NCBI GenBank assembly: GCA_003165295.1
Contig: PLTC01000040.1
Location: forward strand, 1 to 32,141
Source: Rhodospirillales bacterium
GTDB lineage: Bacteria > Pseudomonadota > Alphaproteobacteria > Azospirillales > Azospirillaceae
Length of the DNA stretch: 32,141 nt
Direction of reading: 5' to 3'
Shown: positions 1,981 to 31,804 of the stretch, one piece after another
How positions within the stretch are numbered: the stretch's first letter is position 1
Layout of the letters: each line of letters opens with the position of its first letter
Program-made: the position numbers and the translations under genes
Notes under the pieces: generated by a model
Told to the model about the DNA's origin: nothing
What the model saw: the letters and a program-made list of their open reading frames with translations, nothing else
Database searches by the model: none

Positions 1981-3285
<1,305 letters not shown>

Positions 3286-3731: not shown

Positions 3732-4475
3732 TCAGTCACTGTCTTCGGGGTAAACCGCGTCGGCGTTGCTCCAGCCCCAATAGTCCCAGGCACCGTCAAA
3801 AAAGGCGGTAACGGCCCGGGAATCGGGCAGGCCATCGCACACCGTCAAAGACGGCGCGACCCGGCCGGTGCCAAGGGTCCACCACAGGCTGTAGCGTTGG
3901 GGCAGGGTGGCGGCCAGTTCGTGGACCAGGGCGGGATAGGACAGGGCGGGCGGTTGGGTCGGGTCGAGGGAGACGTGCCAGCCCGGGCCGGTGCAGGCCA
4001 GTGGCGGCGCCGGCCCCTCCCGTTCGGGCGGACCCAGACCCTGGACCCGGGTGGTGAAGGTCTCGAGATGCAGGTTGGGGTCGAGGGCCTGACGCAGCAG
4101 GGCCTCGGCCCGGCCATACCAGGCGCTGGCCGTGACCGGCAGGGTGGCGGGGTCGGTGCCGGCGGGCACCGCGGTTACGAGGCACAACGGAAACACCCGG
4201 CCCAGGCGATCGGCGCCGGGCGCCAGCAGTCCTGCCACCGGGTCGGGGCCGCAGACGCCGGCCTTCAGGGCAAAGCGCCACACCGGTCCTTCGGCGACCA
4301 GCGGCGCCCAGACCTCGCCGAATCGGTCCCAGCCGCTTTGCCAGACCTCGTGAAGCCAGGTTTCCCAGGGTTCGAGGAACGAAGCCGGCAGGGCACGGGC
4401 CAGGAAATCCCCGTAAGAGGGCAGCTTGCCAAAAAAGCCGGGACCGAAGGCCGTGGTGCTCGCACGCGGGTTCAT
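3732..4475 (-). CDS. tagF: Type VI secretion-associated protein TagF
   Basis: A 247-residue protein of the TagF (BMA_A0400/ImpM) family. The diagnostic N-terminal motif FGKLPSYGDFLAR is at residues 15-27, followed by PWETWLHEVWQ and a long domain with SAWYGRAEALLRQAL. In Pseudomonas TagF represses type VI secretion after translation; in other species its role is less clear, and some carry it fused to a PP2C phosphatase (PppA), which this one is not. The start ATG overlaps the tssM stop by 4 bases (ATGA), so the two are translationally coupled. It is the last gene of the tssL-tssM-tagF block. Confidence 0.9.
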   Translation of the reverse strand: MNPRASTTAFGPGFFGKLPSYGDFLARALPASFLEPWETWLHEVWQSGWDRFGEVWAPLVAEGPVWRFALKAGVCGPDPVAGLLAPGADRLGRVFPLCLVTAVPAGTDPATLPVTASAWYGRAEALLRQALDPNLHLETFTTRVQGLGPPEREGPAPPLACTGPGWHVSLDPTQPPALSYPALVHELAATLPQRYSLWWTLGTGRVAPSLTVCDGLPDSRAVTAFFDGAWDYWGWSNADAVYPEDSD

Positions 4476-7400
4476 GGCGACTTTCCAGGGTCGAGGAGCA
4501 GGGCACGGTCGGCGGCCTCACCAAGACCGGCGAACCAACCGGCCATCGGTGCCGGCAGGGCCGCGGCCAGGGCCTTGACCCGGTCGGCGGCGCGACGGAC
4601 TCCGGCTTCGGCGGCGGCATCCCGGTTGGTGGCGGCCCAGGCGGCCAGGGCCTGCCGTAATTCGCCGAGAGCCGCCACCGCGGCGGTGATCGGGGCGGGT
4701 CCGCCGTCGGCTCCGGGCTGGGCCAGTGACCGCAGGGTGGCGAACCGCCGGCCCAGTTCGGCCGCAGCCGGGGTCCACCAGCCGGGATCGTCGGTGCCGG
4801 TGGCGGCGTGAACCGTCGTAACCACGGTGGCGCCGGCGGGCAGTCCGAGCATGCCGGCGGTGGTCGGACCGGCGTCGGCCGGTGTGGCTGCCGATGCCGG
4901 CGGTGTCGGTGATGGAAGGTCGGTTTCGGCGGCGACCGCCCGGGCCAGCACCGGCAGCGGCGAATCCGGGCCGGAGGCCGCAGCCAGCACCGGCAACAGC
5001 TCCGGCACGGTGCCGGTTGGTGCCAGGGTCAGATCGTCGAGCAGGTCCTGCCACTGGCGGGCGTAGGCGTTGAAGTAGCGGGTGGCCAGGTCCCGACGCA
5101 ACTGGCCGGCCCGGACGGCGATGGCTTCGGCATCCATGGAGAGGCCCGACACCCAGCCTTCCCCCGCCAGATCCGAGGCCACCTGGGCGATCACCGGCAG
5201 TACCGTTCGCAGGCATCCGTCCCGGGTATAAAGGCCGGGTATCGGTTCCGACAGCGCCTGACCCGAGCGTCGGACCAGCACCCGGGAAAGGGCGCCGCCG
5301 GTATGGTCGGGCAGTTGCCAGCCGGGCAGGCTGCGCAATTCCGGTGCGGTCCGCAGGAGCGCGGTGGCGCGATCGGCCAGGGAGAAGGCTGCCAGCCGCC
5401 GCCGTGCCTCGGCCACCACCGGGCCGATGTCGGTTCCGGCGGTGCTGACGGACAGGCCACCCTCGAGCAGCGTCTCCAGATAGTCGGCCAGCCGCCGCCG
5501 GTCGTCCTCGTGTTCCGGCCCGGGCAGGCCCGCGATCCAATCCATCGTGAACCATTGGGTGACGACGTAACGGTCCAGCGGGGCTTGCCCGGTCAGCATC
5601 AACAGCACCTTAAGCGCGTCGTAAAGACGTTCGGGCAACTGCGGAGCGGTCTCGGGAGCGGTGGCCAAATGCTGTTCCAGCCGCACCACCAGTCGGGGTA
5701 ACAGCAGGCGGCGCAGGGCGCGATGAAGGGCCGAGGCGGCCAGCTCGGGTAACCGGTCGCCCGCATCCAGACCCGGTGCCCACGGGATCGCGTCGGTGCC
5801 GGCCGGGACGGTTTTCCTGAGCGCCGCGATGGCGTCGAGAACCGGCAGGACCGGGGCGATGTCGCTCTCGGTGACCTGATCAACCAGCGGGCCGCCGGCC
5901 AGTCCGTCGGGCAGCAGGCGTTGGGCGTCATCAAGACCGACTTCCAGGGCGGCAAGCTGGCGATGGGTGGTGAGCCACGCCTGTCCCCATAACCCGGCCA
6001 GCAGCAGGGCGGCGGTGAGAGCGGTCAGCGTCGCCCAGCGTCGCTGCCGGAACAGCCGGGAGGAGGTGGCACCGGGCGGGCCGTCTCCGGCCAGATGGGC
6101 CTCGGCGAACACCACTTCGCGGAACAGCCGGTGCAGGAAAAAACCCTGATCGTCGTCAGGGCCGTGATCGACCTCGGGCAACCGGTCGTCGAGGCCAAAG
6201 GCCGAGACCATTTCAGCGGCGAGCGCGTCGATCGGGGGACCTTCGCGCCTCGCGCTGGTGAAATAGAGGCCGCGCAGCGTCAGCCGCCCGAGCGCCGGAC
6301 GGTCGGAGGCGGATTCGAAAGTTCGTGTCAGGAACCCGGTCAGCGGTGCCCCCATGGCCATCACCTGCTGGGGAAAGCCGGCGATCAGGGCACGGCACAC
6401 CGGGTCGGGCTCCTGGTCCAGTCGTTCCAGCATCCGGTGTTCCAGTCGGGCGATCAAAGGGTCAAAGAGACCGGAGAAGCGGTCGGCCAGGGTGGCGGTA
6501 CCCGAAGCCGCGGCGTTCGCGGGCTCTCCCGCTGGTTCTCCCACCAGGGGGAAGGTCAGGCCCCAGACCTGCCGGCGCTCCTCCGGGGACAACCCGGAAA
6601 AGAATTCCGAAAAGCCGGCGAGGCGGTCGGCCTTGGTCACCAGCAGATAGACCGGCAGCCGGACGCCCAGCCGGTCGTCGATTTCCGTCAATCTATGGTT
6701 GAGAGAGTCGGCGATGGCCAGAGGATCGGCGCCGTCCTGGCCGGTCAGATCGGCCAGACTCACGGTGACCACCAGGCCGTTGACCGGTTGCGCCGGCCGG
6801 TGCCGTTTCAAGAGATTGAGCAGGCCAAGCCAGGCGGCGTTGTCCAGCGGACGGTCGCTGTCCTGGGTCGTGTAACGGCCGGCGGTGTCAACCAGCACCG
6901 CTTCGGACGTGAACCACCAGTCGCAGCTTCGGGTTCCGGCGACGCCCTGGATCGGATGGCGGCCGAGCAGGTCGGACAACGGAAAGGTCAGTCCCGAGCG
7001 GGCAATGGCTGTGGTCTTGCCGGCGCCGGGCGCGCCGATCACCAGATACCAGGGCAGCCGGCGCAGGGACGAGCTGCCCAGGCGGTTGCTGTAGGTGGTC
7101 AGCGCCTCGGTCAGCCGGCGGCGCAACCCCACGATCTCGGCGCCGCCCGGTCCGCCGGCTTCTCCGGGGTCGGCCGGGATGCGGTCGGCCAGCAGCCGTC
7201 GGGGCAGTCGGAGCGGCGCCGTCGGCTCCAGCGGAAGGACCGTGCCGCTGCCGCTGCCGGTGGCCGTGATCAGTGCCCGGATCAGTCGGCGGTTGGCCCG
7301 GCGTTCCCGGACCTGGCGCATCTGGTTGAACAATCCCCAGGCGATCATTGCCATAATCACGCCGGCCAGCCGCGGCTCTTCGTCTTCGAAGGGCCGGAAG

Positions 7401-7654
7401 CCGCCCAGCGACAGCAGTGGACCCAGAAACCAGAGCAGCAGGCAGGCGGCCAGGGCGCCGGCAAGGCTGATCAGCCATTGGCTGGTCAGTGCCCGACGAA
7501 TTTGACCCAGGCTTTGGCTGACGCCGACCAGGAGACGCAGCCAGCGCCGCCGGCCCGGCCCCGGCCGGGTTCGCCGTGGTGGTCGGGCCGGGCGGGCGGT
7601 CTCCTGAGCCTCGGGGCTTTCCTGATCTTCCGGAGGGCTGTGATCCCAGGTCAT
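4472..7654 (-). CDS. tssM: Type VI secretion inner-membrane protein TssM (IcmF/VasK family)
   Basis: A 1060-residue TssM, slightly shorter than the usual 1100-1250. TssM spans the inner membrane and periplasm and, with TssL and the lipoprotein TssJ, forms the membrane core of the type VI secretion system. Two transmembrane helices are visible at about residues 62-83 and 95-112, followed by a cytoplasmic nucleotide-binding domain with Walker A GAPGAGKTT (about 207-215) and a Walker-B-like VDTAGRY. A third helix (about 555-575, LTALTAALLLAGLWGQAWL) leads into the large periplasmic part. The presence of Walker A suggests an ATP-binding TssM. It overlaps tssL and tagF by 4 bases each. The N-terminal 35 residues are rich in proline and arginine. 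The gene for its partner TssJ is not in the window. Confidence 0.94.
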   Translation of the reverse strand: MTWDHSPPEDQESPEAQETARPARPPRRTRPGPGRRRWLRLLVGVSQSLGQIRRALTSQWLISLAGALAACLLLWFLGPLLSLGGFRPFEDEEPRLAGVIMAMIAWGLFNQMRQVRERRANRRLIRALITATGSGSGTVLPLEPTAPLRLPRRLLADRIPADPGEAGGPGGAEIVGLRRRLTEALTTYSNRLGSSSLRRLPWYLVIGAPGAGKTTAIARSGLTFPLSDLLGRHPIQGVAGTRSCDWWFTSEAVLVDTAGRYTTQDSDRPLDNAAWLGLLNLLKRHRPAQPVNGLVVTVSLADLTGQDGADPLAIADSLNHRLTEIDDRLGVRLPVYLLVTKADRLAGFSEFFSGLSPEERRQVWGLTFPLVGEPAGEPANAAASGTATLADRFSGLFDPLIARLEHRMLERLDQEPDPVCRALIAGFPQQVMAMGAPLTGFLTRTFESASDRPALGRLTLRGLYFTSARREGPPIDALAAEMVSAFGLDDRLPEVDHGPDDDQGFFLHRLFREVVFAEAHLAGDGPPGATSSRLFRQRRWATLTALTAALLLAGLWGQAWLTTHRQLAALEVGLDDAQRLLPDGLAGGPLVDQVTESDIAPVLPVLDAIAALRKTVPAGTDAIPWAPGLDAGDRLPELAASALHRALRRLLLPRLVVRLEQHLATAPETAPQLPERLYDALKVLLMLTGQAPLDRYVVTQWFTMDWIAGLPGPEHEDDRRRLADYLETLLEGGLSVSTAGTDIGPVVAEARRRLAAFSLADRATALLRTAPELRSLPGWQLPDHTGGALSRVLVRRSGQALSEPIPGLYTRDGCLRTVLPVIAQVASDLAGEGWVSGLSMDAEAIAVRAGQLRRDLATRYFNAYARQWQDLLDDLTLAPTGTVPELLPVLAAASGPDSPLPVLARAVAAETDLPSPTPPASAATPADAGPTTAGMLGLPAGATVVTTVHAATGTDDPGWWTPAAAELGRRFATLRSLAQPGADGGPAPITAAVAALGELRQALAAWAATNRDAAAEAGVRRAADRVKALAAALPAPMAGWFAGLGEAADRALLLDPGKSP

Positions 7655-9030
7655 CGGCCGGACTCCGCCGGGGCCAGGATGATTTCGATCCGGCCGTTGC
7701 GGTTCCGGTCGGTCGGGCCGGCGGCGGGCGGTAGCGGCCCGCCATCGGCACTGCCTTCGATCTCGACCCGCTCGGGGGCGCGAAGGTGAGCAACCAGTAC
7801 CCGGGCAAAGGCCCGGGCCTGGGCCTCGGTCAGGGCTGTGCCGGAGGGAAAGCGCAGGGTCGGGACAAAACTGTCGTCGGTGTGACCGACCACCTGAATG
7901 TGCCCGGACTCGCGATCGAGGACCACCACCAGATGTTCGGCCAGATCGTGGCCGGGACCGGACAGGGTATCGTCGGCGCGGCCGAAGGCCAGGCTGGTGG
8001 GGATGCGGATCACGTCCCCGGCATCGGTGGTGACGACCTCGATCTGGCCGATGGCGGTTTCCCCGGCCAAAGCGTCCCGGAGCCGTCCCGCCCGGGCCGA
8101 CGGCGCCCGGACAACGGTCGTGGCGCCTGCGGCGGGCGGGCCGGCACGGGCTCCGGGTTCCGCGGGGCCGATCAGCGCCGGCCGGTCGGGCAGCAGGGCT
8201 GCCAACTGTCGGCAGGCGCCATCGATTTCGCTCCCCAGAGAAAAGGCCAGCAGAGCGTACAGTCCGGTCAGCAGAGCGCCTGTCACGGCGGCCGTGACCC
8301 AGACCGGCAGCACCGCACCCGGCGGTGGCCGGGGGGGCGGGACACCCGGCCAGGACGGCGACAACCCGGCGGCCGGGCCGCGTGCGGCGGCGATCAGCGC
8401 GTTGATGTCTTCACGCCGGCGGCGGAATTCGACGGCGCCGTTGGCCTGGGTCCGGGTGTCGCCTTCGAACCCCAGGGCGAGGCACACCGAGAACAATTCC
8501 AGTTCGTTCCGATGCCGGTCGGGCTCTCCCCGGATGTGCTGGAGCAGAGTCAGCAGGCTCGGTCCGGGCTCCAGCGACTGGTAGAAGGTCCGGGTCAGGC
8601 AGCATTCGGACCAACCCGTCCGCTGGCCCCAGGCGGTGTCGCCGATGATGTCGTCCAGGGCGGCGCACAGGATGAAATGGGCGGCGCGCATCTGGTCCGG
8701 CGGCATTCCGGCGGCGCGGGCGGCCGACGGGAACCGGCGCAGGGCGGCGATGATGCGGTGGCGCAGGTCCTCGGGATTGGGGGGCGGCGGCAGTTCGGAC
8801 AGCCGCAGCATCAGGGCCAGCAACGGCGTTGCGGTGTGCAGAATCGGGTTGGCCCCGGCTTCGACCGGCCGCGGCCCGCTGCCCCGCCGGTCCGCGCCGG
8901 TCGCCAGTCGGCTCAGCCGCGCCCGGATGCCCCCGAGCCAGGTCGGGGATCCCGAACCGGTGCCATCGGGGTCTTCTTCGGAAGGGCTGTCCGGCGTGTC
9001 TTGGAGGTGACCCATGGCTTGGTGACCCAT
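7651..9030 (-). CDS. tssL: Type VI secretion protein TssL with OmpA-like peptidoglycan-binding domain
   Basis: With the chosen start the protein has 459 residues. Residues about 60-215 form the cytoplasmic DotU/TssL domain (NPILHTATPLLALMLRL, ALDDIIGDTAWG, ELFSVCLALGFEGDTR). One transmembrane helix is at about 241-265 (LPVWVTAAVTGALLTGLYALL). The C-terminal domain (about 340-455) is OmpA-like, with VGHTDDS and NRNGRIEI, and would anchor the complex to peptidoglycan as in the specialised TssL proteins. The frame extends upstream to 9213, but those residues look untranslated. I prefer the ATG at 9030; the ATG at 9015 lies in a direct repeat of the same 10 bases (ATGGGTCACC twice), so the start is uncertain by five codons. 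It overlaps tssM by ATGA. Confidence 0.9.
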   Translation of the reverse strand: MGHQAMGHLQDTPDSPSEEDPDGTGSGSPTWLGGIRARLSRLATGADRRGSGPRPVEAGANPILHTATPLLALMLRLSELPPPPNPEDLRHRIIAALRRFPSAARAAGMPPDQMRAAHFILCAALDDIIGDTAWGQRTGWSECCLTRTFYQSLEPGPSLLTLLQHIRGEPDRHRNELELFSVCLALGFEGDTRTQANGAVEFRRRREDINALIAAARGPAAGLSPSWPGVPPPRPPPGAVLPVWVTAAVTGALLTGLYALLAFSLGSEIDGACRQLAALLPDRPALIGPAEPGARAGPPAAGATTVVRAPSARAGRLRDALAGETAIGQIEVVTTDAGDVIRIPTSLAFGRADDTLSGPGHDLAEHLVVVLDRESGHIQVVGHTDDSFVPTLRFPSGTALTEAQARAFARVLVAHLRAPERVEIEGSADGGPLPPAAGPTDRNRNGRIEIILAPAESGR

Positions 9031-9514
9031 GGCCCGGTGGCTGAAGGAAGGACCGCGCTTCGCCTTTGCAGACTGGGAACGGATGGACGAAGGCGGGCGG
9101 GTTCGGAAAACGAGGGAGTCTGTTCCGACGCTCCCGCCCGTTTGCCAGATCCACCGGAAACCGCCCAAAAAGTCAAGGGAGCGCCAGCGGTTCTCAATGC
9201 GGCTGAGTCGCATTTGCGAAGGGTCGGGTGGGGGACACCGCCCGAGGCCCTTTGACAGCCTGTTCCTGAAGGCGACCTGCCTGTGACCGGGGCGGGGGCG
9301 GGGGGGGCGGGCGTTCCGGGCGCCCGACGCGCGGCGTTATACTTCAAGCCCGATCAGGACGTCCCGGCGGCCGCATACGGGAATGCGTGACCAGCGCAGT
9401 TGCCGCGGCTATGAGTAATTTCCGGGGCTTTTGATCCCGAACGATGGGGGGTATTCTGGACATCGTAAATATTTACGGAAAGCGGTTGGTCATCCTCGAA
9501 AAGGACGATATCCC
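9031..9514. other. Upstream region of tssL with a G-run cluster
   Basis: No gene is supported. On the minus strand the stretch holds a TTGACT hexamer (9176-9171) that could be a -35 element for tssL, and overlapping palindromes around 9193-9215 (CTCA...TGAG and AATGCG...CGCATT) that resemble Fur-type operators. On the plus strand 9289-9311 has four G runs separated by single C residues. From about 9400 the sequence becomes clearly more AT-rich than the flanking genes. Confidence 0.45.
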
Positions 9515-22072: not shown

Positions 22073-24292
22073 TCATCGGGGGATCAGGTACCGCTCCAGG
22101 TCACTCGGCTTCATCGGCCGGCCGAACAGGTAACCCTGTCCGCGATGACAGCCCAGGTGGCTGAGCCAGGCGCGTTGGGCCTCGGTTTCGATGCCCTCGG
22201 CCAGGACTTCCAAGCCGAGACTGGTGGCCATGGCGATGATGGCGCGGGTGATGGCGGCGTCGTTGGCATCATGGGGCAGGCCGTCGACGAAGGCCCGATC
22301 GATCTTCAGTTCATTGATCGGCAGGCGCTTCAGGTAAGAGAGTGAAGAATGGCCGGTTCCGAAGTCGTCGATGGCCAGCTCGACTCCCAGGTCGCGGAGT
22401 TTGCAGAGAATATCGTAGCCGCTTTCGCCCTCGTCCATGATAAAGGTTTCGCTGACTTCCAGAAGCAGGCAATGGGCGGGCAGGCCGTGGGTCTCGAGGG
22501 CCTGCCGGACCATGGCCAGGGCATCGCCGCGAAAGATCTGGGGTCCGGCCAGATTGACCGCCATCCGCCTGAGCGAAAAACCCCGGTCGCGCCACGCGCG
22601 CATTTGCCGGCAGGCTTCGTCGAGCACCCAGGCGCCCAACGGAACGATCATTCCATTCGCTTCGGCCAGGGGAATGAAACCGGCCGGTGCGACCAGTCCC
22701 TTCTCGGGGTGCTGCCAGCGGACCAGGGCTTCGACGCCGATCATGGTTCCGGTTCCAAGGTCCCATAGCGGCTGGTAATAGACCACGAATTCCTGCCGCT
22801 GGATGGCCCGATGGAGATCCGCCTCCAACAGCAACCGCTCGGTTGCCCGGGCGGTCAGTTCGGGGGTGTAAAAGCAGAAGCGGTTCCGCCCCTGGCTCTT
22901 GGCCCGGTACAGGGCGGCGTCGGCGTGACTCAGCAGGGTGTCGATGTCCTCGCCGTCACCGGGGTAGAGCGCGATGCCGATACTGGCGGTCACGAAGAAA
23001 TCGTGGCCACCGATCAAAAACGGCGCATGGAGAATCTCATTCAGGCTCTTTGCCAGAACGGCGGCATCATCCTCCCGCGTCAGACCTTCCATCAGCACCA
23101 CCATCTCGTCGCCCCCCATGCGGGCGAGGGCGTCCTGTTCCCGGATCCGGCCCTTGAGACGCTGTGCCGCATCCCGCAGCAACTGATCGCCGGCCTGATG
23201 GCCAAAGCAGTCGTTGACGTGCTTGAAATTGTCCAGATCGACGAACAGGATGGCGAGCGACGTGCCCTGTCGGTTGGCCCGGGCGATGGCCTGGCCGGCG
23301 CGGGCATTGATCATCAGGCGATTGGGCAGGCCGGTGAGGGAATCGTAATTCGCCAGATACTCCAACATCGCCTCGTGACGCTTGCGTTCGGTGATGACGT
23401 CGAAAATGGCGACGAAATGTTCCGGCTTCGGGCAATAGACGGAAATCGAAAACCACATGCCCAGGCTTTTGACGCAGGCCTCAAATTGCTCGGGCGGGCC
23501 ACCGGCGGCCACCCGGCCATAGATTTCGAGCAGCTCGGGGTCGGTTTGACGGATGCCCGGAATAACCTCGCTGACCCGCTTCCCCGTCACTCCCTTCAAC
23601 CCGGTCTGGGCCTCGAAGGCAGCGTTGACACTGAGATAGATAAAGTCCTGAGGCTGTCCCTGTTCGAACAGCATAAGACAATAGGCGAAGCCGTTCAGCA
23701 TATGATCGAACAGGGAGCGATAGGTCTCCTCACTTTTTCGTATCTGCTGTTGGGCCTCCCAGAACGTCGTGATGTCGCGGGCAATCCCCAGCACCCCGAT
23801 CAGGATGCCACCGGCGTCGTACATGGGGGTCTTGATCGTTTCAAACAGGCGCCGCTGGCCATCGGGTGAGGTGATCCATTCCTCGTTGCCTCGGGATTCG
23901 TCGGCCACCAGCGCCTCAAGATCCTTCCTGCGGAAGAATTCCGCCCAGTCGGCGGCGAAAAAATCGCGATCGGTTTTGCCGATAACCTCCCCTTCGTTGC
24001 GGCCGATCAAGCGGCAACAGGCTGGGTTCAAGGCCAGGTAGACGCCGGCCGGGTCTTTGAGCCAGATCGGATCGGGAATGGTCTGGATCAGCGAGCGCAA
24101 AAGACTGGAGTCGTTGTCCTGTGCCGCTTCCGTAAGTTGGGCCGTGTCAACCCAGGATATCCTGCCGGCATCGACGCCTGACAGGCCAGGCATTTCACAT
24201 CCGGGTTGTCGAGACCGAGGGGCCAAAGATGAACGATACAAAGTGTTCATATCGCAAACGAACCTTTTCGTCGCAGATCTGGCACTGACCAT
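22073..24292 (-). CDS. PAS-PAS-GGDEF-EAL protein (cyclic di-GMP phosphodiesterase/cyclase)
   Basis: A 739-residue cytosolic signalling protein. PAS 1 lies at about residues 65-180 (IQTIPDPIWLKDPAGVYLAL to GVLGIARDIT) and PAS 2 at about 188-303, ending FDVITERKR. The GGDEF domain (about 310-478) has DSLTGLPNR, an RxxD inhibitory site (R384-D387) and the active-site text GGDEM (393-397), where F is replaced by M. The EAL domain (about 490-735) is intact: E521-A-L, DDFGTGHSSLSYL, KIDRAFV and AEGIETEAQ, so phosphodiesterase activity is likely. Cyclase activity is possible, since the fifth GGDEF residue tolerates changes. The first 60 residues are unstructured and the start is uncertain (ATG 24292, or ATG 24250 giving MNTLYRSS). 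No clear ribosome site marks either. Confidence 0.92.
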   Translation of the reverse strand: MVSARSATKRFVCDMNTLYRSSLAPRSRQPGCEMPGLSGVDAGRISWVDTAQLTEAAQDNDSSLLRSLIQTIPDPIWLKDPAGVYLALNPACCRLIGRNEGEVIGKTDRDFFAADWAEFFRRKDLEALVADESRGNEEWITSPDGQRRLFETIKTPMYDAGGILIGVLGIARDITTFWEAQQQIRKSEETYRSLFDHMLNGFAYCLMLFEQGQPQDFIYLSVNAAFEAQTGLKGVTGKRVSEVIPGIRQTDPELLEIYGRVAAGGPPEQFEACVKSLGMWFSISVYCPKPEHFVAIFDVITERKRHEAMLEYLANYDSLTGLPNRLMINARAGQAIARANRQGTSLAILFVDLDNFKHVNDCFGHQAGDQLLRDAAQRLKGRIREQDALARMGGDEMVVLMEGLTREDDAAVLAKSLNEILHAPFLIGGHDFFVTASIGIALYPGDGEDIDTLLSHADAALYRAKSQGRNRFCFYTPELTARATERLLLEADLHRAIQRQEFVVYYQPLWDLGTGTMIGVEALVRWQHPEKGLVAPAGFIPLAEANGMIVPLGAWVLDEACRQMRAWRDRGFSLRRMAVNLAGPQIFRGDALAMVRQALETHGLPAHCLLLEVSETFIMDEGESGYDILCKLRDLGVELAIDDFGTGHSSLSYLKRLPINELKIDRAFVDGLPHDANDAAITRAIIAMATSLGLEVLAEGIETEAQRAWLSHLGCHRGQGYLFGRPMKPSDLERYLIPR

Positions 24293-24678: not shown

Positions 24679-26691
24679 TCATCGTGGGGGATGGGGTGAG
24701 GGCGGTTGCCCGGCGTCGGATCGCTCGGGCAAATCACGAGTGGCGGTCCCCGATTCCAACAGGTGAGCGGAGCGGTCGCACATGTGGACCACCAACCGGC
24801 GCAGCTCGGGCAGGATTGCCTGAAACAGCGTGTGGCGCAAGGCGCGATCAGGAATCCGGGTCAGGAAAAAGGCGCTGTAACGCGCCATGCCTTTCAGGGT
24901 TCCCGCGGTCAGTGCCGGCACGCCCTGGTAACCGTCGCGGTCAAGCAAGGGCAACAGGGTATCCCAGAAGCTCATGATCCCGAGGCCATCGACCGCGGCC
25001 CGGTCGATCAGGTCGAGGAGCGTTGCGAAGAAGCGCCGGTGCTCCAGGGTCAGTTGCACCAGTCGGTCCGGAAAGAGGACAGCTCCAGGCTCCCGCCGTG
25101 GCAGGCTGGCGACGACTTCGTCCCGGGTTGCCCGGGAGCCCCGGCGCAGCGGCGGCAGCCGCACCGCCGCGGCAAGCCTGGGCTCGGCGCCATCGATGCG
25201 GGCACCATCGCTGCAATTGAAGACCCGGCTGCCGCTATGCCGGATCAGCAGCTTGAAGTTGTCGAGACCGATGGCGTAGACGACATCGGTCTTGATGGTG
25301 CCGCCGAAATTAGCCGGAGCCTCCACGGGCAGCGACCGGTCCTGTTCCTCGGCGATCAGGAAATCCAGGTCCTGATAGACGGTATTGCCGGCGTGCCCCA
25401 ATCCGGCGACCCGGGTCCCGAAATCGGCGCCGAAAAGATAGAGTTCCCGAAAACCCAGGCTGACCGCGAGCCGCGCTCCGGCGTTGACGGCGGTGGGAAA
25501 CGCCAGCACCATCGCCTGATCGGCCAGCCCGACCATGGTGCTGGCGGCGACGTAGGGCCGGACGTACATCAGGACGTCGTCGAACATTGGCGGCAGTCGG
25601 GGATCGACGGTCAGCGCCGCCACCAGGGTAATGCCGGTGAAGGGATGCTTGCCGGCGGTATGACCGAGGATGGTCACGGCTTCGGGCGCATTTTCGCATT
25701 CCAGGTGAAAATCCGGGACGAGGCCGTGGCTGAGACAGTTTTGCAGTGCGGTCCCGCACGAGATCAGCACCGCCCCCGGGCGTAAACGACGCAGGTCTTC
25801 GAGATCGCGATCGAGGGAGGGGCCGGCGCCCACGAGAATTGCCGGTTCGAGCCGGCGCGGCAGCGGCGCCGCCGGAACCAAAGCGAAGCGGTTGTGCGCG
25901 CAGTTGGCCAGGGTGTTGACGAGCATGATCAGCTCGTCTTCAAAGAAGCCGGTGGCGGCGAAGACCCGCTCGTAATGGGCCGGTAACTGGTCGCGGACCC
26001 GCTGGAACAGTTCGGCCGGATAGTGAATGAACAGCCACGCTCCATCAAGGTGGATGGCGCCATCGGCAGCCAGTTCCAGAATGACCTGTTCCACCAGTTC
26101 GCTCTCGGTGGTGGCGGTCAGCAGGGTAAAACGTCGGCCGGCGGCGTGATGGTGATCAAAGAACCGTTGCCAGTCGACGGTATGGCAGGAAAGCGCGAGA
26201 AATTCCGGCACCGGCTCGACCAGCACCACCCGTCGGGGTCTGGCCATCTCAATCAGAGCGTCCAGATGGTAGCCCAATCCGACCCCGAACACGACCAGGG
26301 TGCCGCCCGGCTCATCGGGCCGGTCGGTCAGGGTCAGTCCCCGGTCCAGCAAGCTCCGGCATTGGGCCTGGACCACCGCCATGAATTCCAGGCCGATGCC
26401 GTGGAACAGGTTTTCACCGCCCGGAGCGTGCCGGAATACCCGAAACGGTGCCCGACGGTAGGTCTCGATCTGTTGGGCGGCGATGGCGCGGGCGTCGCCG
26501 CGGTAAAGCCGGCCGGTGCCGAGAGCGACGTCCACCCCGACCCCGTCCGCGACCACCAGGAGGGCGGCAAGACCGTCAGGCAGTTGTCCTTCAAGTTGCG
26601 GAAAACAGGCCAGCAGCGCCGCTCTCGAACCGGGGGCGCTCACCTCCGGCCGGAGTGCCCGATCAATCCCCTCTCCGCCTTCCCCCGACAT
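24679..26691 (-). CDS. DUF115/Maf-type protein (possible motility-associated glycosyltransferase)
   Basis: A 670-residue cytosolic protein with the 6-hydroxymethylpterin pyrophosphokinase MptE-like (DUF115) domain found in Maf proteins. The core is at about residues 240-480: PAILVGAGPSLDRDLEDLR, AVLISCGTALQNCLSHGLVPD, FHLECEN, and near the end AVSLGFRELYLFGADFG. An N-terminal segment contains LVVFGVGLGYHLDALIE. Maf proteins transfer pseudaminic or legionaminic acid to flagellin in several bacteria; here no flagellin or sugar synthesis gene is near, so this role is inferred. I chose ATG 26691 because AAAGGAA lies five bases upstream; the open frame continues 166 codons further through a repeat array and is probably not translated. 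Confidence 0.85.
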   Translation of the reverse strand: MSGEGGEGIDRALRPEVSAPGSRAALLACFPQLEGQLPDGLAALLVVADGVGVDVALGTGRLYRGDARAIAAQQIETYRRAPFRVFRHAPGGENLFHGIGLEFMAVVQAQCRSLLDRGLTLTDRPDEPGGTLVVFGVGLGYHLDALIEMARPRRVVLVEPVPEFLALSCHTVDWQRFFDHHHAAGRRFTLLTATTESELVEQVILELAADGAIHLDGAWLFIHYPAELFQRVRDQLPAHYERVFAATGFFEDELIMLVNTLANCAHNRFALVPAAPLPRRLEPAILVGAGPSLDRDLEDLRRLRPGAVLISCGTALQNCLSHGLVPDFHLECENAPEAVTILGHTAGKHPFTGITLVAALTVDPRLPPMFDDVLMYVRPYVAASTMVGLADQAMVLAFPTAVNAGARLAVSLGFRELYLFGADFGTRVAGLGHAGNTVYQDLDFLIAEEQDRSLPVEAPANFGGTIKTDVVYAIGLDNFKLLIRHSGSRVFNCSDGARIDGAEPRLAAAVRLPPLRRGSRATRDEVVASLPRREPGAVLFPDRLVQLTLEHRRFFATLLDLIDRAAVDGLGIMSFWDTLLPLLDRDGYQGVPALTAGTLKGMARYSAFFLTRIPDRALRHTLFQAILPELRRLVVHMCDRSAHLLESGTATRDLPERSDAGQPPSPHPPR

Positions 26692-27049
26692 TGCCGTTCC
26701 TTTCCTGGTGGCAGCGGCTGCAAAGCCCTGGACGGCCGGCCCCGCGAGCGCGCCGTCTCCGATCGTCTCCGACCGTCTCCGACCGTCGCCGACCGTCGCC
26801 GACCGCCTCCACAGTCTACCGTACCCGTCGACCGACCCGCCATCGTCCTGGGGTGCCGCAAAAGGTCGGGTGCCTCGACGACGCGGGCAGGGGACGATTC
26901 GTCTCCGGCCCGGCGGGAGTTCGTTAACAAAGTATAGGAGTTCCAGGTTTTCCAGATGATTAACCATCGTTGAAGGGCAAAACCGCTTTCCTTGGAGGTT
27001 GCCGGCTCCTATACTCGACACCGGCCTGTCGCGTGGCGCCGGGAGGAGG
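26692..27049. other. Divergent promoter region between the Maf-like gene and a kinase gene
   Basis: The region separates two outward-reading genes and should hold both promoters. It contains a 10-bp tandem repeat array (26755-26810) close to the Maf-like gene, an AT-rich part around 26925-26985, and a widely spaced 10-bp inverted repeat, AGTATAGGAG (26931-26940) and CTCCTATACT (27006-27015). Confidence 0.5.
26755..26810. repeat. 10-bp tandem repeat array in the leader of the Maf-like gene
   Basis: Period-10 units: GTCTCCGATC, GTCTCCGACC (twice), GTCGCCGACC (twice) and a partial GCCTCC, from 26755 to 26810. The copies differ by one or two bases in a graded way, showing an older array than the one at 22002. 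It lies 64 bases upstream of the chosen start of the Maf-like gene. Confidence 0.9.
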
Positions 27050-29395
27050 ATGTGGGTGTCCCGATTTCCCGGCCGGGTGCGGCGGCGCATAAGGCTTGCC
27101 ATGCCAGATGAATTCCTGTCCGCACTATGGACGGTACCGGACGCTGCGGGCGTCGGGGATGGGCTGTGCATCACCGACGAGTCCGGCATCTTCCTGCGGG
27201 TAAACGACGTCTTTTGCCGGCTCCATGGCCGTGACGAAGGCGAGCTGTTGGGGCGGTCGGTCCTGGTCCTGGCCGAAGGCGGGGAGCGGCCGGCGTTCGG
27301 GGCCGGCTATATCGACCTGATCCGCGGGACGCTGGGCGAGCGGATGGAGTTGCACCTGCCGCTGCCGGGGGTGCCGGCACGGCAACTGATCGCCCGGGCC
27401 TTTGCCCTGACCGGTATGACCGGTGGCCGTTTCACCGTGACCATGGTCACGGCACGGGAGGTGATGCCGGCCGGGCGCGGTGACGGTTTTATCATCGCGG
27501 CCGATCCGGGCCTGGCGGTGCTGGCGGCGGCCGGCGACGGGGTGGTGGGCACCGATCGGAACGGCATCATCGACACCTTCGACAGCGGCGCCGAACGCCT
27601 GTTCGGCTACGACGCCGCGGAGGTGATCGGCGCCAGTGTCTCGGTGCTGATGCCCGAGTCCTATCGTCAGCAGCACGATCGCTATATGGCCGAAGCCGGG
27701 TGCAACCCGGCTTCGGGCAGGCACGAGCGCCAGCGCCGGGTGGTCGGCCAGCGCAAGGACGGCTCGGTGTTTCCGCTGGTGTTGCTGCTTGACGAGCGTC
27801 CGGTGGGCGCGCGCGGCGGCTACCTCGCGGTGCTGCTCCATGATGGTGATCACGAGATGAACCGGGCCAGCCTGGAGCAGACCAGCGCCCGGCTTTACGA
27901 TGCCCTGGGCTGCCTCAAGGAGGGCTTCTTACTGTGCGATGCCCGGGATCGCATCGTGGTGGCCAACGCCCGCATGCGCTCGCTGTTCGCGGAAATCGCC
28001 GACCTGATTGTGCCGGGCCGCAGTTTTAACGATCTGGTTCGGGCCTGTGCCCGGCGCGGTCTCTACAATCCCGGGGCGGAGGACCTGGAAGACTGGATCA
28101 CCGAACGCCTGGCCCGGCGCCGTCACCTGCCCAACCGTTTCGAGATGGATATTCGCGGCGGCCGGCGCATCGAAGTGCGCGAGCTGGCCACCGCCGAGGG
28201 CGCCTGCGTCAGCGTCTACGACGACATCACCGAACGCTACCACCGGGAACGGCAGTTGCGCGAGCGTGAGGCCGAACTGTCCACGGCACAGCGCATCGCC
28301 CGGTTGGGCGGCTGGCGGGTGGATCTGGCGAGCGGCAACATTACGTGGTCCCAGGAGATGTATCGCCTGTTTGGCGTGGAGCCCGGAGCGTTCCCGCTGT
28401 CGCCGGAGGCGGTGTTCGCGGTGATCCACCCCGACGACCGCGAGCGGGTGCGGCGCCTGCTGACCCGGCCGCCCCGACGCCTGCCGGCGCGGGAATGGGA
28501 ATTTCGGATCGTCCGCCCCAGCGGCGAGGAGCGGGTGCTGTGGGCCGAGAGTCAGAGCGAACGTAACCAGCGTGGCGAAGTGGTCGCCCATTTCGGGGTC
28601 TGTCAGGACGTGACCGCCCGCAGGCTTGACCAGTTGGCGTTGATTCAGGCGAAAGAGGCGGCCGAGCTGGCCAACCGCTCCAAGTCGCAGTTCCTGGCCA
28701 ATATGAGCCACGAGTTGCGCACTCCGCTCAATGCCATCATCGGTTTCAGCGAGATGATGGCGAGCGAGGTGCTGGGGCCGTTGGGCAACAAGCGTTATCG
28801 CGATTATGCCGAAGCCGTGCTTAACAGTGGCAACCATTTGCTTGAATTGATCAACGAGGTTTTGGACCTCTCGAAGATCGAAGCCGGCCGCTACGAACTG
28901 GCCGAAGAATGGTTGTGTCTTCGTGAAGTCTTCCAGGAGGCGCTGATTCTGGTCGGTCCGCGCGCCGAGGAAAAAGGAACCACCACCACCTTCTCCGGGG
29001 CCGGAGATCTTGCCCCGCAACTGCTGGCCGACCGTCGGGCATTGCGCCAGATGCTGCTCAATCTGCTGTCCAACGCCATCAAGTTTACGCCGGCGGGCGG
29101 CCGGGTGGCCATGCGGGCGGTTTGGGATCTCAGCGGTCTGCGCCTGGAGGTCGCCGATACCGGCGTCGGCATTCCTGCCGAGAGAGTGAGGGAGCTGGCC
29201 CAGCCCTTTGTCCAGATCGACAACGCCATGAACCGTCGCCACACCGGCAGCGGCATTGGCCTTTATTTGACTCGGAGTCTGGTTGAACTTCATCGCGGCG
29301 CCCTCGACATTTCCAGCCGTCAGGGCAGTGATTCCGGTACCACCGTCGCCCTGATTTTCCCGGCCGAACGTCTGCGCTTTCACGCCGACGGTTGA
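27050..29395 (+). CDS. Multi-PAS sensor histidine kinase
   Basis: A 781-residue kinase without membrane helices. PAS-like domains lie at about residues 28-140, 148-265 (DGVVGTDRNGIIDTFDSGAE to LHDGD), 275-400 and 405-535 (a PAS_3 type: RIARLGGWRVDLASGNITWS, HPDDRERV). The dimerisation/phosphoacceptor helix has LANMSHELRTPLNAIIGFSE with H554, followed by an ATPase domain with LLSNAIKFTPAGG, VADTGVGIP and GSGIGLYL. The second PAS is FixL-like, with H209 (QQHDRYM) and an arginine 20 residues later. The start is ambiguous: ATG 27050 follows GGGAGGAGG very closely; ATG 27101 (MPDEFLSALW) has AAGG at better distance. No response regulator gene is adjacent; the partner may be the hybrid kinase downstream or a protein elsewhere. 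Confidence 0.92.
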   Translation: MWVSRFPGRVRRRIRLAMPDEFLSALWTVPDAAGVGDGLCITDESGIFLRVNDVFCRLHGRDEGELLGRSVLVLAEGGERPAFGAGYIDLIRGTLGERMELHLPLPGVPARQLIARAFALTGMTGGRFTVTMVTAREVMPAGRGDGFIIAADPGLAVLAAAGDGVVGTDRNGIIDTFDSGAERLFGYDAAEVIGASVSVLMPESYRQQHDRYMAEAGCNPASGRHERQRRVVGQRKDGSVFPLVLLLDERPVGARGGYLAVLLHDGDHEMNRASLEQTSARLYDALGCLKEGFLLCDARDRIVVANARMRSLFAEIADLIVPGRSFNDLVRACARRGLYNPGAEDLEDWITERLARRRHLPNRFEMDIRGGRRIEVRELATAEGACVSVYDDITERYHRERQLREREAELSTAQRIARLGGWRVDLASGNITWSQEMYRLFGVEPGAFPLSPEAVFAVIHPDDRERVRRLLTRPPRRLPAREWEFRIVRPSGEERVLWAESQSERNQRGEVVAHFGVCQDVTARRLDQLALIQAKEAAELANRSKSQFLANMSHELRTPLNAIIGFSEMMASEVLGPLGNKRYRDYAEAVLNSGNHLLELINEVLDLSKIEAGRYELAEEWLCLREVFQEALILVGPRAEEKGTTTTFSGAGDLAPQLLADRRALRQMLLNLLSNAIKFTPAGGRVAMRAVWDLSGLRLEVADTGVGIPAERVRELAQPFVQIDNAMNRRHTGSGIGLYLTRSLVELHRGALDISSRQGSDSGTTVALIFPAERLRFHADG

Positions 29396-29773: not shown

Positions 29774-31804
29774 ATGGATGTGCTGAGCCAGATGGTTTTC
29801 TGGGACGGTGCGCTGATGCTGGGCGCAATAGTCACAGTCCTTGGAATAATACTTAAAATCTTAGGCTTTAGGGTCCGAAGCGAGGGGGCGCCGGCGGAAA
29901 TTGTGCTTCAGGCCGCGATCGACGGGGTCGTTACTCTTGACGAGCGCGGTCGCATTGCCGGCTTCAACCCGGCGGCCGAACGCCTGTTTGGTTATGGCCG
30001 GGCCCAGGTGATCGGCTGCAATCTTGGAATGCTGATGCCCGAGCCGTACTGCTCGCAGTATGAGAGCCCGCCAGGCGATCCGCCGGGGGGAGGCGCCGTC
30101 CAGATGCCCGGCACCCGCCGCGAAGTGGTCGGCCGCCGCAGCGATGGTACGACCTTTGCCATGGAAGTGGCGCTCGGCGAAGGTTGGAGGCGTGGGCGTC
30201 GCCTGTTTGCCGCGGTCGTGCGCGACATCAGTGACCGCGAGCAGGGTGAAGCACAACTCAAGGCCAGCGAAAGCAAGGCCCGGGCGATTCTGGAAACGGC
30301 GGTGGACGGCATCGTTACCATTGATCGCAGCGGCATCATCTTGTCCGCCAATCCGGCCACGGTTCGTTTGTTTGGTTATCAGACGGACGAATTGACGGGC
30401 AGAAACGTCTCGATGCTGATGCCGGAACCCCATGCCGGCAAGCATGACGGGTACCTTCGCCATTACCTTCAAACGGGCGAGCGTCATATCATCGGCATCG
30501 GCCGGGAGGTTTTCGGTCGGCGCAAGGACGGCTCGACCTTTCCCATGGAGTTGTCGGTGGGTGAGGCGGTGGTCGGGGGCTGTCCGATCTTCACCGGCAT
30601 TGTCCGCGACATCTCCGACCGCAAGCGCGCCGAAGCCGAGCTTTCGGCAGCCCGGGATCAGGCCGAACGCGCCATTCTGTCCCAGTCCAAGTTTCTGGCG
30701 GCGGCCAGCCATGACCTGCGCCAGCCGATCCAGGCGCTGACGCTGTTCACCTCGGCCCTGGGCTCCAAGCTGAAGGGGACGCCGGCATCGGCTTTGCTCG
30801 ACGACATGAAGGGCTCGGTGGAAGCCATGACCATGTTGCTCGATGCCCTGCTCGACGTGTCCCGCCTGGACGCCGGCGTGGTGGTTCCCCACGAGACCAC
30901 CTTTTCCCTGGCCTCGGTGCTGGAGCGGCTGGCGGCGGAATTCAGGCCGCAGGCCGAGCAAAAGGAACTCGACCTGCGTGTCCAACCCTGTTCCGCCGTG
31001 GTGCGCACGGATCCGATTCTGCTCTACCGCATACTTCAGAATTTCATCTCAAATTCGTTGCGATACACCAGCCAGGGCAAGGTTTTGTTCGGCTGCCGGC
31101 GCCTTGGCCGTAAGCTGCGCATCTCGGTTCTTGACACCGGGATCGGCATTCCGGGCCACTTGCAGCAGGAGATTTTCAAGGAGTTCTTTCAGATCGGCAA
31201 TCCCGAGCGCGACCGCAGCAAGGGTCTCGGCCTGGGCCTTGCCATTGTGCAGCGCCTGTCCCGGCTTCTCCACGCCCCGGTCCTGGTCCGCGCCACGGAG
31301 GGACGGGGCTCGGCGTTTTCCATCGATATCCCGCTGGTCGGTTTCAACCGGATCGCCAATGTCTTCCCGTTGCGGCCCCCTCTTGCCCAGTTCACGCCCA
31401 CCGGCAAGGGTCTGATCTACGTCATCGACGATGAACCTTCGGTGCTCAAAGGGTTGCGGCTGGTGCTGGAGGACTGGGGCTACACCGTGCTGACCGGCCG
31501 GACCGAGCTGGAAGCGGTGAGCACCTTGACCCGGCGGCAGCAGGCGCCGGATCTGATTATTGCCGACTACCGGCTGCGCAGCATTTGCAATGGCGGGCAG
31601 GTGGTGGCGCAAATTCGGGAAATGTTCAACCGGCAGATTCCCGGAATTCTGATTACCGGCGATACCGCGCCGGAGCGCATCCGCGAGGCCACGGCCAGCG
31701 GCCTGCGGTTGATGCACAAGCCGATCGAGGCGGCCGAACTCCGTGCGGCGGTGCTGGACAGTCTTTCGGTGGCCACCGGCGAGGCCCGCAACACCGGCGT
31801 CTAA
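29774..31804 (+). CDS. Membrane-anchored FixL-like hybrid histidine kinase with receiver domain
   Basis: A 676-residue hybrid kinase. One transmembrane helix is at about residues 12-32. PAS 1 (about 42-155) and PAS 2 (about 167-283) are both FixL-like. PAS 2 keeps the heme pattern of Bradyrhizobium FixL at exact spacing: H224 (proximal His, KHDGYL), H238, and R244 in HIIGIGR, with MLMPEPH before and GRRKDGSTFPMELSVGE after. In PAS 1 the proximal His position is Tyr (SQYESP), so it should not bind heme. The phosphoacceptor H313 is in AAASHDLRQPIQAL, followed by an ATPase domain (NFISNSLRYT, LDTGIGIP, GLGLGLAIV) and a C-terminal receiver domain with D552-D553, phospho-acceptor D598 and K649. 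AAGGAG precedes the start. Predicted function: oxygen-responsive phosphorelay kinase. Confidence 0.93.
   Translation: MDVLSQMVFWDGALMLGAIVTVLGIILKILGFRVRSEGAPAEIVLQAAIDGVVTLDERGRIAGFNPAAERLFGYGRAQVIGCNLGMLMPEPYCSQYESPPGDPPGGGAVQMPGTRREVVGRRSDGTTFAMEVALGEGWRRGRRLFAAVVRDISDREQGEAQLKASESKARAILETAVDGIVTIDRSGIILSANPATVRLFGYQTDELTGRNVSMLMPEPHAGKHDGYLRHYLQTGERHIIGIGREVFGRRKDGSTFPMELSVGEAVVGGCPIFTGIVRDISDRKRAEAELSAARDQAERAILSQSKFLAAASHDLRQPIQALTLFTSALGSKLKGTPASALLDDMKGSVEAMTMLLDALLDVSRLDAGVVVPHETTFSLASVLERLAAEFRPQAEQKELDLRVQPCSAVVRTDPILLYRILQNFISNSLRYTSQGKVLFGCRRLGRKLRISVLDTGIGIPGHLQQEIFKEFFQIGNPERDRSKGLGLGLAIVQRLSRLLHAPVLVRATEGRGSAFSIDIPLVGFNRIANVFPLRPPLAQFTPTGKGLIYVIDDEPSVLKGLRLVLEDWGYTVLTGRTELEAVSTLTRRQQAPDLIIADYRLRSICNGGQVVAQIREMFNRQIPGILITGDTAPERIREATASGLRLMHKPIEAAELRAAVLDSLSVATGEARNTGV

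Follow-up and report, generated by a model that had tools for sequence, protein, structure and literature searches.

A gene for a hybrid histidine kinase near the end of the analysed DNA (the window, the whole stretch of 32,141 nucleotides from a Rhodospirillales bacterium) appears to join a probable heme-based, O2-sensing PAS domain to a relay kinase of the NahK/ErcS type. The best explanation of its features, to which a probability of roughly 0.7 is given, is a membrane-anchored heme-PAS sensor that drives a NahK-type phosphorelay via its own receiver. Its mode of action is probably that of a FixL-type sensor, but it is neither FixL nor the rhizobial hybrid hFixL. A first-pass annotation had described an O2 sensor of a wiring other than that of FixL; this is still the best reading and the kinase class does differ, although heme and O2 binding is predicted from sequence and the second PAS domain (PAS2) falls outside the FixL clade. 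The kinase family, a close paralogue and the recurrence of the design in Rhodospirillales had gone unnoticed in that annotation.

The open reading frame matches the Pfam models for PAS (twice), HisKA, HATPase_c and Response_reg, each above its cut-off, and is likely to begin with a single membrane helix (Table 1); two relatives, P0002 and L021, also have a hydrophobic stretch at the start. The catalytic residues are intact: the phosphoacceptor lies within SHDLRQP, where classical FixL has HELNQP, and the receiver retains D552/D553, D598, T628 and K649. The phosphoacceptor type and its difference from FixL, the terminal receiver and the numbers of H313 and D598 had all been given correctly in the first-pass annotation.

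Table 1. Coordinates in the window of the hybrid kinase gene, its domains and key residues, and the neighbouring kinase gene.
Feature	Position	Strand	Remark
Neighbouring multi-PAS histidine kinase, no receiver	26999..29395	+	
Whole gene, TM-PAS1-PAS2-HisKA-HATPase-REC hybrid kinase	29774..31804	+	ATG start, 676 aa
Likely single N-terminal membrane helix, residues about 12-31	29807..29866	+	hydrophobic stretch read from sequence
PAS1, residues about 41-160	29894..30253	+	FixL-like
Tyr96 of PAS1	30059-30061	+	occupies the proximal His place
PAS2, residues 166-291	30269..30646	+	candidate heme domain
H224	30443..30445	+	candidate proximal heme ligand (BjFixL H200)
H230	30461..30463	+	replaces BjFixL R206 / SmFixL R200
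H238	30485..30487	+	BjFixL H214; not conserved in relatives
R244	30503..30505	+	candidate ligand-contacting Arg (BjFixL R220)
HisKA, residues 304-368	30683..30877	+	
Phosphoacceptor H313	30710-30712	+	within SHDLRQP
HATPase_c, residues 413-521	31010..31336	+	
Receiver domain, residues 548-660	31415..31753	+	
D598	31565-31567	+	receiver phosphoacceptor

With regard to the kinase, residues 298-661, including the receiver, align over the full length of NF041832, the model for NahK/ErcS-family hybrid kinases, with 368 bits against a cut-off of 400; relatives score 360-382 bits, all slightly below the same cut-off. The kinase is thus best described as NahK/ErcS-like, with a score under the curated cut-off. 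The FixL equivalog NF041777 gives 237 bits, far from its cut-off of 850. FixL-like proteins in the compared set carry HELNQP or HEINQP, and the kinase of the hFixL pRL90020 has HDFNN and is a good match to CckA-like models, so that FixL-type PAS domains pair with at least three kinase classes, the NahK-like target among them. In Legionella, the response of NahK to NO runs via the FIST protein NosP, with NarR as the phosphorylated substrate (PMC8846402). The target instead carries a FixL-type PAS sensor in the same chain. A NahK that partners NosP would call for a nosP (FIST) gene in the genome, and no FIST match was found (assembly about 91% complete).

An ungapped alignment places H224, H238 and R244 of PAS2 on H200, H214 and R220 of BjFixL, and puts a Tyr at the proximal position of PAS1, as had been noted from the sequence earlier. 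PAS2 has the proximal His and the Arg at FixL spacing together with the aliphatic I239, L260 and V262. Compared with classical FixL from B. japonicum and S. meliloti, it keeps the equivalents of H200, Y203, I215, R220, M234 and L236, whereas the H214 equivalent is as in the B. japonicum protein only and V262 is as in SmFixL. Apart from the variable position 214, the pocket string (HYHEHIIIRVMLV, against HYRERIIIRVMLV in SmFixL) departs from that of SmFixL at a single heme contact, 206. This is the sole conserved heme contact changed in PAS2, where H230 stands for R206 of BjFixL (R200 of SmFixL). It was reported that the R200H variant of SmFixL has heme spectra and CO rebinding near wild type, and that R200 variants autoxidise (PMC10765370); by analogy, H230 would be a tolerated change. 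His at this place is also found in rhizobial hFixL and several betaproteobacterial sensors.

In the proposed mechanism, PAS2 would hold heme via H224, and O2, another diatomic gas or a heme redox change would act at the iron. R244 and the aliphatic lid of I239, L260 and V262 would respond to the iron ligand; the change would then travel via a short linker to the dimerisation helix and set the autophosphorylation of H313. The receiver would take up the phosphate at D598 and hand it to an HPt protein or a response regulator whose gene lies elsewhere in the genome, a presumed partner such as NahK-type kinases use. For PAS1, which lacks the proximal His, a role in structure or dimerisation is probable.

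As the ligand, O2 is a first guess suggested by the pocket, with NO or redox as a live alternative. That a heme-binding PAS2 senses NO, CO or the redox state of heme, a sub-case which disputes the ligand only, appears unlikely, though less so than the other alternatives considered below. It would suit both the kinase family, with its NosP-mediated NO response in Legionella (PMC8846402), and the failure to find a FIST/NosP protein in the genome, and H230 may favour autoxidation as in the SmFixL R200 variants (PMC10765370), but the O2-sensing SmFixL has the same distal residues as PAS2 (R244, I239, L260 and V262).

The residues named in the first-pass annotation are confirmed, and its interpretation is supported in part. 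An alignment of 43 PAS domains from several phyla shows no exception to H224, Y227 and R244, and positions 206, 212 and 214 drift across related domains. The counterpart of H238 is Arg in SmFixL and Lys or Arg in most relatives, and H238 was rejected as a heme marker on account of this variability. The useful signature is H224 and R244 with aliphatic I239, L260 and V262, which a very large subfamily of PAS domains has in common. Far more than a hundred of the PAS domains examined show the His/Arg pattern, most of them outside FixL, which calls for caution in reading it as a mark of FixL.

When PAS stretches of this genome were aligned to a FixL-type profile, 19 distinct stretches covered both positions 200 and 220; His200 was present in 5/19, Arg220 in 11/19 and both in 3/19, and only two (PAS2 and the paralogue on contig C24) combined them with an aliphatic residue at 215. 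These low counts suggest that the pattern in PAS2 is more than chance. Across 159 related PAS stretches, R220 with aliphatic residues at 215, 236 and 238 accompanied His200 in 125 of 138 cases and was present in 2 of the 21 stretches without the His; this association is supportive and not a probability, because the stretches are not independent of one another and were collected with patterns from the same subfamily, and the uniformity of the relatives is for the same reason partly a product of selection. Planctomycete proteins (L033:467-3217 and L034:3419-5731) have five or more FixL-like PAS domains in tandem, each with the His/Arg pattern.

The predicted fold of PAS2 is that of a FixL-like PAS domain. 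Its AlphaFold model (mean pLDDT 88.5; the prediction input left out three rows from annotated plasmid records) has FixL structures as its best 20 matches in the PDB, namely the BjFixL tandem-PAS dimer and FixL heme domains, followed by DosP and later by LOV domains. By sequence, FixL heme domains come nearest among the solved proteins, with E about 1e-34, and heme-binding DosP is next (5e-14). As controls, PAS1 and the PAS of the neighbouring kinase likewise match FixL first, so this likeness shows the fold family and not heme, and the closest solved structure was rejected as proof of heme because it does not discriminate. In one PAS of the neighbouring kinase the His, Tyr203 and Arg220 of FixL are present, but positions 215 and 218 are both Arg; the distal pocket would then be charged, and heme there is doubtful.

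The controls bear on a further explanation, in which PAS2 descends from a FixL-type heme-PAS and has lost heme, H224 and R244 being remnants and the domain serving as a relay or binding another ligand. FixL-like PAS domains do lose the pattern in this very genome, in PAS1 and the neighbour's PAS, and heme measurements were found for none of the kinases in this group. This account seems rather unlikely all the same: several phyla, and the paralogue of the same genome, retain H224, Y227 and R244 together with the aliphatic pocket, and PAS1, which lacks the His, lacks the pocket pattern as well.

A receiver-bearing FixL is already known, though with another kinase class: hybrid FixL proteins occur in Rhizobium leguminosarum (PMC7888657). 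The hFixL of strain 3841 (pRL90020, of the hFixL-FxkR-FixK system) has, like the target, two PAS domains, a kinase and a C-terminal receiver, and its second PAS is FixL-type with His at the 206 place, as in PAS2. Its kinase is, however, CckA-like, whereas that of the target is NahK/ErcS-like, and its gene adjoins those of a Crp/Fnr-type regulator and a cbb3 oxidase, whereas the neighbours of the target are ffh and a PAS kinase. Neither the HDFNN kinase nor the linkage to fxkR/fixK that marks hFixL was found for the target. In the PAS tree, a supported clade of its own unites SmFixL, BjFixL, hFixL and Microvirga sequences; PAS2 lies outside it and pairs with the second PAS of a hybrid kinase from Azospirillum sp. 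B506 (L029), with the deeper forks unsure since the alignment has about 125 columns. PAS1 sits on a long branch. Classical FixL differs from the target further in having R206 and no attached receiver. That the target is an orthologue of FixL or hFixL acting on FixJ or FxkR, as its heme-type PAS with a receiver (PMC7888657) and the His at the 206 place might suggest, is hardly credible given the kinase class, the FixL equivalog score and the position of PAS2, and membership of either group was rejected on the kinase class and the PAS tree.

In Rhodospirillales, a dozen distinct genes encode this PAS-kinase fusion. One is the paralogue on contig C24 (63% identity over residues 161-665). Two other genomes of the genus also encode a FixL-type PAS with an HDLRQP or HDIRQP kinase and a receiver, as do Rhodospirillales MAGs and replicons of Azospirillum. 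The kinases compared (the C24 paralogue; L148-L150 and L029 of Azospirillum, with L148 and L149 from A. brasilense; L021-L023, L026-L028 and L030) have the same plan as the target, and His and Arg are kept in every one. The target differs in its additional PAS1 without His, and in several of the others the FixL-type PAS is followed by one more PAS ahead of the kinase. No published report of a fusion of a FixL-type PAS with a NahK-type kinase was found in the open-access literature. In two genomes a small protein adjoins the paralogue (L002:3207-3608 on the plus strand, L021:346-780 on the minus strand); it looks hemerythrin-like by eye and has no Pfam match.

It may be, at slightly under even odds, that these genes represent an uncharacterised Rhodospirillales lineage of NahK-type phosphorelay kinases in which an in-chain FixL-type heme-PAS replaces the NosP that acts in trans. 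If so, control by O2 or NO would need no FixLJ, and in the target there would also be a second FixL-like PAS, whose Tyr stands in the place of the heme His. Should PAS2 bind heme, FixL-type O2 sensing would reach NahK-type kinases, beside the HELNQP FixL and HDFNN hFixL proteins, and NahK-type phosphorelays, known for NosP-based NO control, would have acquired a sensor of their own. Because Azospirillum carries copies, these predictions are testable in culturable bacteria. The combination seems to be genuine, though a modest departure from a familiar sensor design.

The output of the relay can be narrowed somewhat from the genome, with absences that are provisional because the assembly is about 91% complete. 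Neither a FixL equivalog nor ccoN was found in it, so the classical output of an O2 sensor is not in sight, and cbb3 oxidase as the output was rejected for want of ccoN. Pfam scans of the larger open reading frames in the window gave no HPt domain and no other receiver; the genome has 23 HPt matches, among which three short open reading frames (contigs C165, C266 and C171) are candidate partners, none near the target. Where other genomes of the genus show a long enough region upstream of ffh, the target was not found in it, and the ffh neighbourhood therefore gives no functional clue.

Several other features of the window are recorded here. A PAS-GGDEF-EAL protein is encoded close to the kinases at 22073-24292 (minus strand). 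A Maf-type flagellin glycosyltransferase (Maf_flag10_N, MptE-like) is encoded at 24679-27189 (minus strand). IcmF-related and DotU genes that belong to a type VI secretion-like cluster lie at 4472-9213 (minus strand). In addition, a fluoride riboswitch (Rfam RF01734, 57.4 bits) lies at 1342-1403 on the plus strand, 5' of an open reading frame with a partial CMAS match (1406-1987) and an enolase gene (1984-3285).
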